A stretch of DNA of 64,000 nt, taken from positions 1 through 64,000 of the forward strand of contig NZ_WKJD01000012.1 in NCBI RefSeq assembly GCF_009674665.1. Reading direction: 5' to 3'. The stretch is from Agromyces kandeliae. GTDB lineage: Bacteria; Actinomycetota; Actinomycetes; Actinomycetales; Microbacteriaceae. Both the position numbers and the translations under genes were made by a program. Below the pieces are notes generated by a model. The model was not told where the DNA came from, did not search any database, and saw nothing but the letters and a program-made list of their open reading frames with translations. This document shows positions 6,433-11,543 of this stretch, piece by piece (positions within the stretch are counted from its first letter, which is position 1; each line of letters starts with the position of its first letter).

Positions 6433-6464
6433 GGCGGTCGCGCCGCGGTGTCCACGCATGCCGC

Positions 6465-7897: not shown

Positions 7898-8551
7898 CTA
7901 CTCGGAGCCGTTCGCACCGGCGAGGGTCATTGGTCGATCCCCCCACGCCGCGAGCCGCGCCTCGAGGCCGGCGCGCACGGCGGGCCACTCGTCGACGAGG
8001 ATCGCGTACACCGCGGTGTCGCGCCACGTGCCGTCGGGGCGACGCATCGCGCGGCGGTGGACGCCCTCGAAGCTCGCCCCGAGCTTCAGGATGGCGGCGC
8101 GCGAGCGCGAGTTCACGGCATCCGCCTGCAGCTTCACCCGGCCGAAGCCGTGGTCGAACGCGAGCCCGAGCATGAGCAGCTTGACCTCCGGGTTCACCAC
8201 GGTGCCCCACACGCGCGGGTCGAAGCCCGTCCAGCCGATGTGGGCGGACTCGTTCGGCAGGTCGAGGTCGCCGAGCTTGGTCGCGCCCACGAGGGCGCCG
8301 TCGTCGGGCCCGCCGCGCAGCCGCACCCCGAACGGGATCGCGTCGGCGGCGGGGGTGTAGGACGCGCGGGCGAAGGCCTCGAACGCCGCGTCATCGGCGG
8401 GCAGCCCGGACGGGCCGCCGCCGAACCCGCCGGCGAACACCTCGGGGCGTCCGATCGCCGTGCGCAGGGACGGGAAGTCGTGCTCGGTGATCGGCGTCAG
8501 CGCGAGGTAGCGGCCTTCGAGGGTGTGGACGAGCGGACGACTGGCGGGCAC
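7898..8551 (-). CDS. GNAT-family N-acetyltransferase
   Basis: This 217-residue protein has the RimJ/RimL-like acetyltransferase layout: an N-terminal LEGRYLALTPITEHD, a central strand with VGATKLGDLDL, IGWTGFDPRVWGTVVNPEVKLLMLGLAFDHGF (acetyl-CoA region) and LQADAVNSRSRAAILKLGASFEGV. Such enzymes acetylate protein N-termini or small amines; the substrate is unknown. The start is set at GTG 8551, where CAGACT precedes it by 6 bases and no ribosome site is present. It is divergent from the cargo-like gene at 8771. Confidence 0.78.
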   Translation of the reverse strand: MPASRPLVHTLEGRYLALTPITEHDFPSLRTAIGRPEVFAGGFGGGPSGLPADDAAFEAFARASYTPAADAIPFGVRLRGGPDDGALVGATKLGDLDLPNESAHIGWTGFDPRVWGTVVNPEVKLLMLGLAFDHGFGRVKLQADAVNSRSRAAILKLGASFEGVHRRAMRRPDGTWRDTAVYAILVDEWPAVRAGLEARLAAWGDRPMTLAGANGSE

Positions 8552-8770: not shown

Positions 8771-10171
8771 GTGCGCGGTTCCCGGCCGGCGCGAGCCGAT
8801 GCAGAAGCCATGGCCGCCGCCGACGGCATCCGGAGGCGGCCTCCGACTCCCGTCACGCCTCACGCGACACCGAGCGGAACCGACCTGCCCACGACGTCGG
8901 CGTCCACGTTGATGCGTCTGCAGCGAACCGCCGGCAACACCGCCGTGACCGCTCACATGCAACGCGACGACGGAGCAGCCCCGGCGGTCGCACCGGCGGC
9001 GCCCGTCGCAGCCCCCGTTCCCGCCACGGCGCCACCGAGGATCGACTACGTGTTCCTGATGGGGAGTTCGAGGCGGGACTCGTTCTACGCGGCGGCCGAC
9101 CTGTACTTCCGTCAGCACGAGCCGGGCGCCCAGATCAATCGCGACAAGCGCACGCTCGCGGACGTCATCGCCCACGTGAACGCCGGTGCGGCACCGGCGC
9201 TCAGGATCATCATCGTGTCCCACGCCAACGAGGAGGGAAACCTCGGATTCTCAGTCGACGCCGCCGACCTGCGGCGGGACACCCGTCGAGGCGACCGGAA
9301 GCCGAGGATCGAGTTCAAGGAGCTCCGGGATGCCGTCGCCGGAGGCGCGTTGCCGATCGCGGATGTCGCGAAGATCGACGGCTCTACGAGGGTCGAGATC
9401 CGCGGCTGCAATATCGGACGCTCCACGCGGATGCTGGACGCCCTCGATCAGGCATTCGGCGGCGCCACGCAGGTCACGGCTCCGACGCACAAGCAGGAGT
9501 ACTCCGCACGAAGCGGCGGCCGGGGCAGGCCGAGGGTCACCGATGAAGCCCTCTTCCAGTACTCGATCGAGGACCCCGGGCACCCGACGGTGAGTTCCGC
9601 CGACCGAGGGGCGCGCTTCCGGGCGAAGTACCCCGATGTACCGGCACGGCTGTGGCCGGCCCTGCTCGCCGCCGCCAGGGAGAGGCACGTGAAGCGGAAG
9701 GCCTACGAGTGGACCGGCGTGAACCCCCCGGCCGACGACGCGGCCTCCGTATTCGCGCGGCTCGGCACCAATCGGATGTTCCCGGCCCGGCGTGGTTGGG
9801 TCGTCACCTACAAGGGACGGACGACGGTCGGAGACAACTGGCGTTTCGAGGTGCAGGCCGACCGCGTGACGTCGACCGCCTCCGAAACGAGGACGAGCTT
9901 CGTCCAGACGGCCATCCCTCCCGACGGTGCAGTGCTGAGGGAGCGGGAGATGGCGGACTCGGGCCGACCCGATGCCGCCGACTGGACCGTCGTGGACCGC
10001 ATCGTCGGCAGGAGGCTCGTGCGAACGGTGTATGCGGAGCACACCGAGTGGGTCATCAATCGACGGATCGTCGGGGCATCGGGTACGGCGCACCCGCCGA
10101 TGACGGACCCCACCTTCTTCGGGCAGTCGACCTTCACCCCGACGGTGGCGCCGAACCCTCCATCGCCGTGA
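8771..10171 (+). CDS. orphan contractile-injection-cargo-like protein with putative His/Cys core
   Basis: The protein is 466 residues if it starts at GTG 8771, which lies 6 bases after TACTGT (8759-8764) and fits a leaderless start. Residues 49-66 (MRLQRTAGNTAVTAHMQR) match the short LQR-x-x-GN-x-AV segment typical of DUF4157/extracellular-contractile-injection-associated proteins. A proline/alanine linker follows (about 67-90). The core (about 91-245) alternates predicted strands and helices, with IIIVSHANEEG (His151) and VEIRGCNIGRS (Cys213), a spacing that resembles caspase-like cysteine peptidases. The C-terminal half (250-466) is not recognised. There is no signal peptide. Codon use is less GC3-biased than its neighbours (e.g. 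aatatc, tatgcg), which hints at transfer. No contractile-system structural gene is nearby. The cargo role and the dyad are inference. Confidence 0.6.
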   Translation: MRGSRPARADAEAMAAADGIRRRPPTPVTPHATPSGTDLPTTSASTLMRLQRTAGNTAVTAHMQRDDGAAPAVAPAAPVAAPVPATAPPRIDYVFLMGSSRRDSFYAAADLYFRQHEPGAQINRDKRTLADVIAHVNAGAAPALRIIIVSHANEEGNLGFSVDAADLRRDTRRGDRKPRIEFKELRDAVAGGALPIADVAKIDGSTRVEIRGCNIGRSTRMLDALDQAFGGATQVTAPTHKQEYSARSGGRGRPRVTDEALFQYSIEDPGHPTVSSADRGARFRAKYPDVPARLWPALLAAARERHVKRKAYEWTGVNPPADDAASVFARLGTNRMFPARRGWVVTYKGRTTVGDNWRFEVQADRVTSTASETRTSFVQTAIPPDGAVLREREMADSGRPDAADWTVVDRIVGRRLVRTVYAEHTEWVINRRIVGASGTAHPPMTDPTFFGQSTFTPTVAPNPPSP

Positions 10172-10256: not shown

Positions 10257-11543
10257 CTAGTCGAGCAGGTCGTGCAGCTGCACGATCTCCTCGCGGCCGG
10301 GGCCGACGCCGATCGCCGAGAAGCGCGCGCCCGACATCGCCTCGAGCTCGCGCACGTAGCTCTGGGCGTTCGCGGGCAGGTCCTCGAACGAGCGCGCTCC
10401 CGAGATGTCCTCGGTCCAGCCGGGGAACTCCTCGTACACCGGCTTGGCGTGGTGGAAGTCGGACTGCGAGACCGGGACCTCCTCCATGATCACGCCGTCG
10501 ACGTCGTAGGCGACCGCGACGGGGATCCGGTCGATGCCGGTGAGCACGTCGAGCTTGGTCAGGACGAAGTCGGTCACGCCGTTGACGCGAGCCGTGTATC
10601 GGGCGATGGGCGCGTCGTACCAGCCCGTGCGACGACGACGCCCCGTCGTGGTGCCGAACTCGTGGCCCTTCTCGGCGAGGAACTCGCCCCATTCGTCGAA
10701 GAGCTCGGTCGGGAACGGACCCGAGCCGACGCGGGTCGTGTACGCCTTCACGATCCCGATGACGCGGTCGATGCGGTTCGGCGCGATGCCCGAGCCCGTG
10801 ACCGCGCCGCCCGACGTCGCATTGGACGAGGTCACGAACGGGTACGTGCCGTGGTCGACGTCGAGCATGGTCGCCTGGCCGCCCTCGAACAGCACGGTCT
10901 GGCCGGCCTCGAGCGCGCGGTGCAGCAGCAGCGAGGTGTCGGTCACCATGGGGCGAAGGCGCTCGACGTAGCCGAGCAGGTCGTCGACGATCTCGTCGAC
11001 GCCGATGGCGCGGCGGTTGTAGACCTTGACGAGCAGGTGGTTCTTCTGGTCGAGGGCCCCCTCGACCTTCTGCCGCAGGATGTTCTCGTCGAAGAGGTCC
11101 TGCATGCGGATGCCGACGCGATTGATCTTGTCGGCGTAGCTCGGGCCGATGCCGCGGCCCGTCGTGCCGATCTGGCGCTTGCCGAGGAAGCGCTCGGTGA
11201 CCTTGTCGAGCGTGCGGTGGTACTGCGTGATCACGTGCGCGTTCGCCGAGATCTTCAGCTGCGACGTGTCGACGCCGCGCGACTCGAGTCCCTCGATCTC
11301 CTCGAAGAGCACCTCGATGTCGACGACGACGCCGTTCGCGATCACGGGCGTGACGCCCGCCGTGAGGATGCCGGAGGGCAGCAGGTGCAGGGCGTACTTC
11401 TCGTCGCCGACGACGACCGTGTGCCCGGCGTTGTTGCCGCCGTTGAACTTGACGACGTAGTCCAGGCGCGAGGAGAGCAGGTCGGTCGCCTTGCCCTTGC
11501 CCTCATCGCCCCACTGTGCTCCGATCAGCACGACTGCGGGCAT
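10257..11543 (-). CDS. purA: adenylosuccinate synthetase
   Basis: This 428-residue enzyme joins IMP and aspartate using GTP to give adenylosuccinate, the first step from IMP to AMP in the cytoplasm. Visible signatures are the N-terminal [14 protein letters not shown] (P-loop and catalytic Asp), NNAGHT (catalytic His), [22 protein letters not shown] and the C-terminal TKLDVL guanine-binding motif. The length is normal. The start ATG at 11541-11543 follows GAGAGGA and lies 1 base after the stop of the DUF3151 gene, a pairing common in actinobacteria. Confidence 0.97.

Follow-up and report, generated by a model that had tools for sequence, protein, structure and literature searches.

Does an orphan gene of Agromyces kandeliae encode a payload for an injection machine that is itself encoded elsewhere in the genome? 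The gene in question occupies positions 8771..10171 (forward strand) of a 64,000-nucleotide stretch of contig NZ_WKJD01000012.1; this whole stretch was analysed, and is referred to here as the window. The segment LQRTAGNTAV, near the N-terminus of the predicted protein, is a form of a tag found also in two proteins of an extracellular contractile injection system (eCIS) of the same organism. The explanation we favour, and consider probable if by no means assured, is that the window gene encodes an unlinked cargo of this eCIS, whose genes lie on another contig; that is, judging from sequence, a putative His/Cys hydrolase that would be docked by means of its tag and ejected.

The window protein, its tag and an eCIS cluster on another contig

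Residues 45-59 of the window protein (translation of 8771-10168) read STLMRLQRTAGNTAV, and LMRLQRTAGNTAVTAHMQRDD sits within its Ala/Pro/Thr-rich N-terminal 87 residues. A 22-column profile of the tag was constructed from 12 segments, namely those of ten DUF4157 proteins of the genus, one of Amycolatopsis rifamycinica and one of a large protein of the A. kandeliae genome; the family of the window protein was left out. The consensus is hhxLQRxAGNxAVxxLh, followed by QR. In the 3.78-Mb genome of A. kandeliae, this profile yields seven matches at E<=10. The two best, a DUF4157 protein (4.0e-14) and the large protein (2.2e-11), lead by construction, as both supplied segments to the profile. The window gene ranks third, with an E value of 5.4e-4, and the remaining four matches have values of 0.03 and above. 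The LQR/GN segment pointed out in the preliminary description of this DNA is thus real, in that a profile derived from other proteins detects it.

DUF4157 (eCIS_core, PF13699) occurs once in the genome, on contig C22; the window is on C4. Gene calls together with PHROG and Pfam matches define an eCIS cluster at approximately C22:112,958-133,027, in which seven of eight proteins were matched by PHROGs and one was left without a match. The cluster encodes a sheath (E 5.1e-89), a tube, two baseplate wedge proteins, an ATPase, a tail protein (probably the spike), the small DUF4157 protein (a 253-residue frame), and, adjoining the sheath, the large protein, of 1318 residues. LQREAGNGAV precedes the DUF4157 domain in the small protein, and LQRAAGNAAV is found at about residue 55 of the large one. 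The large protein (L003:3256-7212, minus strand) also has a C-terminal APOBEC_N match (residues 1222-1288, E 1.3e-6, 29.0 vs 25 bits), and this AID/APOBEC-like end is likely to be a toxin tip on a tape-measure-like cargo. The search for contractile-injection genes that the preliminary description proposed is answered by this cluster, and its statement that none lie close to the gene also holds, as none of the called window genes resembles one by eye. Two traits of known eCIS-associated toxins (EATs) are therefore present, i.e., an eCIS in the same genome and an N-terminal segment shared with eCIS proteins.

The features of the window gene are the following.

8771..10171, + strand: candidate eCIS cargo, an orphan protein of 466 residues; the GTG start is uncertain
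8906..8968, + strand: N-terminal tag, residues 46-66, in which the second QR occupies 64-65; profile match at 8909-8947, E 5.4e-4
9032..9601, + strand: core domain, residues 88-277, possibly a caspase-like cysteine hydrolase; residues invariant in five of five family members
9221..9223, + strand: codon of His151, from the translation and family alignment
9407..9409, + strand: codon of Cys213, from the translation and family alignment
9488..9490, + strand: codon of His240, also invariant in the family alignment; alternative catalytic partner for Cys213
9692..10045, + strand: C-terminal alpha/beta domain, residues 308-425, from the predicted structure

The reading frame is open upstream to at least position 6458, so that the GTG start is a choice rather than a demonstrated start. 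On either side of the gene are what we take to be a GNAT-like acetyltransferase gene (7898-8551, minus strand) and an adenylosuccinate synthetase gene (10257-11543, minus strand).

Tagged genes in Agromyces and Amycolatopsis

Among 60 genomes of the genus, the tag was found at E<=0.05 in 18 of the 21 that carry DUF4157 and in none of the 39 that do not (Fisher p 1.4e-12; kinship among genomes within a genus means that this and the later p values overstate independence and are indicative only). This count is partly built in, because the tag is present in the DUF4157 protein as well and ten of the 18 genomes fed the profile. The three positive genomes lacking the tag are two with weak DUF4157 matches (G038 and G056; 23.2 and 33.5 bits) and one, G021, whose match falls in a 175-residue frame. 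One member of the genus (G012, contig C39; L048) has another contractile-system cluster, of a different kind, where DUF4157 is matched in a called protein of 764 residues.

More telling are the distal matches, i.e., those on another contig or far from the cluster, as judged by reading the individual rows. There are 33 such matches in the genus, the window gene included, and in 30 of them the coding frame is that of the tag; one further row of the A. kandeliae genome, L130 (E 0.074), is in frame as well. For the window gene the frame is that of its translation and gene call; for the others it was called by the best score of a simple codon measure, which in some cases is weak and for L115 falls slightly below zero. 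With the window gene set aside and L130 added, 30 fetched sequences are in frame, and in 29 of them a start codon could be placed no more than 60 residues ahead of the tag; the remaining one, L119, is cut by a contig end. The other three of the 33 (L121, L124 and L128) were dropped, as they score best for coding on the opposite strand: in three genomes, a gene that recurs contains a tag-like pattern in the same antisense frame, a pitfall for later searches with the tag. Distal in-frame tagged genes are thus present in 14 of 21 DUF4157-positive and 0 of 39 DUF4157-negative genomes (p 6.7e-9). When the positives are restricted to the 11 that contributed nothing to the profile, the comparison is 5/11 versus 0/39 (p 2.2e-4).

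Since 11 of the 12 profile rows stem from the genus of this test and only one from Amycolatopsis, a run on 80 Amycolatopsis genomes, 46 of them with DUF4157, provides a better check. At E<=0.05 the tag was found in 27 genomes (24/46 with DUF4157 and 3/34 without it), the three negative rows having E values of 0.014-0.036, about what is expected by chance. At E<=0.01 the figures are 22/46 and 0/34, and 19 of these 22 tag-positive genomes have a DUF4157 frame of 249-291 residues. That is, the tag accompanies some DUF4157 systems, not all. Of the distal rows at this threshold, 21 of 22 are in frame, and each of these has a potential start codon at most 60 residues before the tag; the other, L157, was dropped because the opposite strand scores better for coding. 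The retained genes occur in 12 of 46 positive and 0 of 34 negative genomes (p 8.7e-4).

The proteins that carry the tag are diverse. By BLAST, the 30 fetched in-frame proteins of the genus fall into about 16 families with little likeness beyond the tag, except for a peptidoglycan-binding stretch common to three of them. One of these families, with five members of 1174-1312 residues, seems to resemble the large cluster protein. Pfam was run on 33 distal representatives (17 from the genus and 16 from Amycolatopsis, a few of which share local similarity), and none has a DUF4157 domain at E<=0.01. Matches above cut-off were obtained for six, namely PG_binding_1 (L125, L123, L130), OmpA (L104, L148) and SLT (L159), and for the other 27 there were none; HNH, M15 peptidase, GmrSD_C and apolipoprotein matches lie below the cut-off. 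Some of these domains are enzyme-like, and as far as the annotations go, the tagged set would fit a toxin-and-envelope repertoire. In 28 of the 33 representatives, from both genera, another QR, which is not part of the profile, occurs no more than 42 residues after the tag; among control windows taken from these proteins the figure is 35 of 270. This enrichment indicates that the tag extends beyond the profile, and the trailing QR might be a processing site or a second docking site.

Two further tagged genes were noted in the A. kandeliae genome, at L125/L160:7925-9220 (plus strand, C14; E 0.032) and at L130:2708-4549 (minus strand, C22:27965; E 0.074). Both products have peptidoglycan-binding domains, and the genome total is five tagged proteins. 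An unlinked tagged protein of A. rifamycinica (L149:3192-4217, minus strand) has an APOBEC_N match just below cut-off (E 1.5e-4).

The protein family and its core domain

The nearest relative found is a protein of A. rifamycinica, with 56% identity; relatives in the same genus were found in three of the 60 genomes (four counting A. kandeliae itself), at 33-34% identity. In the resulting five-member alignment, A54-G55-N56, V59, Q64-R65, S150-H151, the stretch G212-C213-N214-I215-G216-R217-S218, T239 and H240 are invariant. The family alignment called for by the preliminary description therefore bears out its two candidate catalytic residues, His151 and Cys213. All five host genomes carry DUF4157, and in each the family gene is unlinked to it: in four the two are on different contigs, which in a draft genome is no proof of distance, and in G028 they are about 195 kb apart. 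The idea that a machine encoded at another place in the genome loads this effector is strengthened by these five hosts, by the cluster on C22 and by the confinement of distal tags to DUF4157-positive genomes within the genus; the loading itself is inferred from sequence.

Searches for further relatives covered several collections. No match was obtained in plasmids and phages by tblastn, and none of the 19 pattern matches in IMG/VR is related to the family. A sample of 396 genomes of the phylum gave the window gene alone, with about four candidates scored per genome, such that relatives may be missed; the same limit applies to the 394 genomes of the class searched with a family profile. From the class sample, two weak extra rows (L038, L039) were dropped because none of their listed frames looks family-like by eye. 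G027 (E 3e-5) was also dropped, as the match crosses the stop codon that ends a called 139-residue gene. Pfam, NCBIfam and PADLOC gave sub-threshold chance rows or nothing for the window protein and its homologues. The three same-genus relatives (L011, L012, L013) share one conserved site beside rplL-/rplJ-like genes, near a transporter gene, and the window gene is not at that site. In the Amycolatopsis set, G831 contains decayed fragments of the C-terminal part of the family only (L042, ~9000-10100, minus strand).

What might the core domain do? Peptidases of clan CD are characterized by a His-Gly dipeptide and by a catalytic His that precedes the Cys, each following a hydrophobic strand. In the window protein, too, the His precedes the Cys; a hydrophobic stretch leads up to each of them, and both are invariant. 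The His lies in SHG in three of the five members and in SHA in two, the window protein included. AlphaFold models from two sequences have pLDDT (predicted local distance difference test) values of 48.0 and 39.8, so that the core is of low confidence. The top Foldseek match of the 39.8 model is the SAVED-CHAT filament 8tl0 (E 5.2e-3, probability 0.87), in searches that are non-discriminating. Of the caspase-like layout proposed for this protein, the residue order and invariance fit clan CD, with both models poor and no family matched: a caspase-like core is only suggested. In the C-terminal domain, the block of residues 327-376 is modelled at pLDDT 86-91 and the remainder at 54-77, and no convincing known fold was found for residues 308-425.

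A core of another kind is a serious alternative, if in our view a less than even one. In this case Cys213 would pair with His240, in a Cys-before-His order, or the domain would use other chemistry. The His-then-Cys order after hydrophobic stretches, and SHG in three of five members, fit clan CD instead, and the best structural match of the poor model, SAVED-CHAT 8tl0, points the same way.

Alternatives and known systems

How would such a protein be delivered? In the explanation we favour, the tag would be a loading or docking signal by which the protein is bound to the machinery that fills the eCIS, the likeliest point of contact being the small DUF4157 adapter or its partner, which are themselves tagged; the particle would carry the cargo and eject it upon contraction. 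The core, probably a His/Cys hydrolase and most likely a cysteine peptidase of the clan CD type, would then cleave a target protein, with binding of substrate or target as the presumed task of the C-terminal domain. A shared docking step is made plausible by the Sle1/Sle2 pair of Streptomyces lividans: Sle2, which has DUF4157, binds the cargo Sle1 in its N-terminal region and is proposed to connect it to the baseplate core (PMC13277306). A stronger version, to which we give an even chance, is that in actinobacterial eCIS of the Sle1/Sle2 type one address tag (LQRxAGNxAV plus QR) is borne by the adapter, by the tape-measure-like cargo and by dozens of scattered, unrelated proteins, the window protein being one such cargo with a caspase-like peptidase. 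If this is true, one machine serves a dispersed and exchangeable effector repertoire.

Several observations weigh against this explanation. Of the known eCIS toxins, 88% have their gene no more than about ten genes away from the cluster (PMC11297309); the genes of the window family are far off, and the window gene itself is not within that range. No small partner or immunity gene is found among the gene calls beside it. By Pfam scan, a DUF4157 domain with HExxH is absent from the window protein and its four homologues. The preliminary description would have given up its proposal had close homologues lacked both catalytic residues and the LQR-GN segment. The alignment does not refute it, as His151, Cys213 and AGN..V are kept in five of five, although the leading LQR is confined to the window protein and missing from all four homologues. 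The Amycolatopsis family member scores only E 0.25 with the tag profile. Seven of the 21 positive genomes of the genus lack a distal in-frame row, including G028, which has a family member, and 24 of the 46 positive Amycolatopsis genomes lack a tag row at E<=0.01. Searches of Pfam, NCBIfam and PDB profiles gave no peptidase match, the PDB rows being at chance level and remote homology still possible, and the core has no confident structural match to any peptidase.

These points leave room for other explanations. The cargo might be turned against the producing cells themselves or their siblings, a cytoplasmic contractile injection system carrying it as a peptidase for regulated cell death; this would differ from our preferred explanation in the target. 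Cytoplasmic systems and cell death have been reported in Streptomyces (PMC10066040, PMC12237407), and the lack of a called immunity gene next to the window gene would suit this possibility; we consider it somewhat unlikely. Alternatively, the tag might dock only on the producer's side, to an adapter, chaperone or scaffold, with the tagged proteins aiding eCIS biogenesis, storage or firing and never being ejected. That the adapter-like DUF4157 protein is itself tagged is consistent with this, and the wall of the producer could be where the peptidoglycan-binding, OmpA-like and SLT domains act. However, the AID/APOBEC-like deaminase domains, in the 1318-residue protein and, below cut-off, in the distal A. 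rifamycinica protein, look like toxin payloads, and we regard a purely producer-side role as unlikely. Last, the window gene could be a recently acquired foreign gene with a chance tag and no connection to the eCIS. Its codon use is indeed atypical, as the preliminary description had it: the GC content at third codon positions (GC3) stands at 0.850 where the median is 0.951, and none of the 55 window genes with 150 residues or more has a value as low, the set including a shorter call of the gene itself (0.866). GC3 of the Amycolatopsis homologue is also below that of its 17 neighbours, and that of the three other homologues is not the lowest in their surroundings. The closest relative belongs to another genus, which would also fit an acquisition. 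A chance tag is nonetheless highly improbable, given that it ranks third in the whole genome, that every family member keeps AGN..V and QR, and that all five hosts are DUF4157-positive.

How, then, does an unlinked, tagged cargo compare with what is known? Like EATs (PMC8213781, PMC11297309), the window gene is found in an eCIS genome, and its N-terminal segment is possibly a loading signal. Unlike them, the protein has neither DUF4157 nor an annotated Pfam domain and is encoded far from the cluster, and its tag is a sequence motif; the eCIS signal peptide of Danov 2024 (PMC11297309) is scored from N-terminal biochemical features. The order of genes in the A. kandeliae cluster (large protein, DUF4157 protein, sheath) is that of the Sle1/Sle2 pair (PMC13277306). 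Sle1, however, is a tape-measure-like cargo of coiled-coil type whose gene adjoins that of the sheath, and the window protein is unlinked and of different make-up. The available text of that paper on Sle1/Sle2 does not mention the LQR..AGN segment, and the titles, abstract openings and passages searched in the literature on contractile injection systems (including PMC12691689 and PMC11126660, and mostly without subscription papers and preprints) contain no description of the tag and no link of such a system with 'caspase-like'.

Cargo of Photorhabdus virulence cassettes (PVC) has N-terminal signal peptides, 50-70 disordered residues that are loaded via Pvc15 and can be grouped by sequence (PMC11495950). 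The tag is similarly N-terminal, and the A. kandeliae cluster encodes an AAA-type ATPase; the tag differs in being one short conserved segment common to cargo and the DUF4157 adapter. As for the core, CHAT and caspase-like proteins of clan CD (e.g. 8tl0) share with the window protein the order of His and Cys and the predicted strand ahead of each; they differ in giving no sequence match, and the structural likeness comes from the model with pLDDT 39.8. Single N-terminal markers are familiar from another machine, the type VI secretion system (T6SS), whose effectors bear the marker domains MIX and FIX. RIX of T6SS effectors (PMC10435454) is likewise one N-terminal marker on many unrelated effectors. 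Compared with RIX, MIX and FIX, the eCIS tag is a segment of about 20 residues, and if it finds cargo genome-wide, the known eCIS repertoire would widen and the tag would become a portable, directly testable loading signal.
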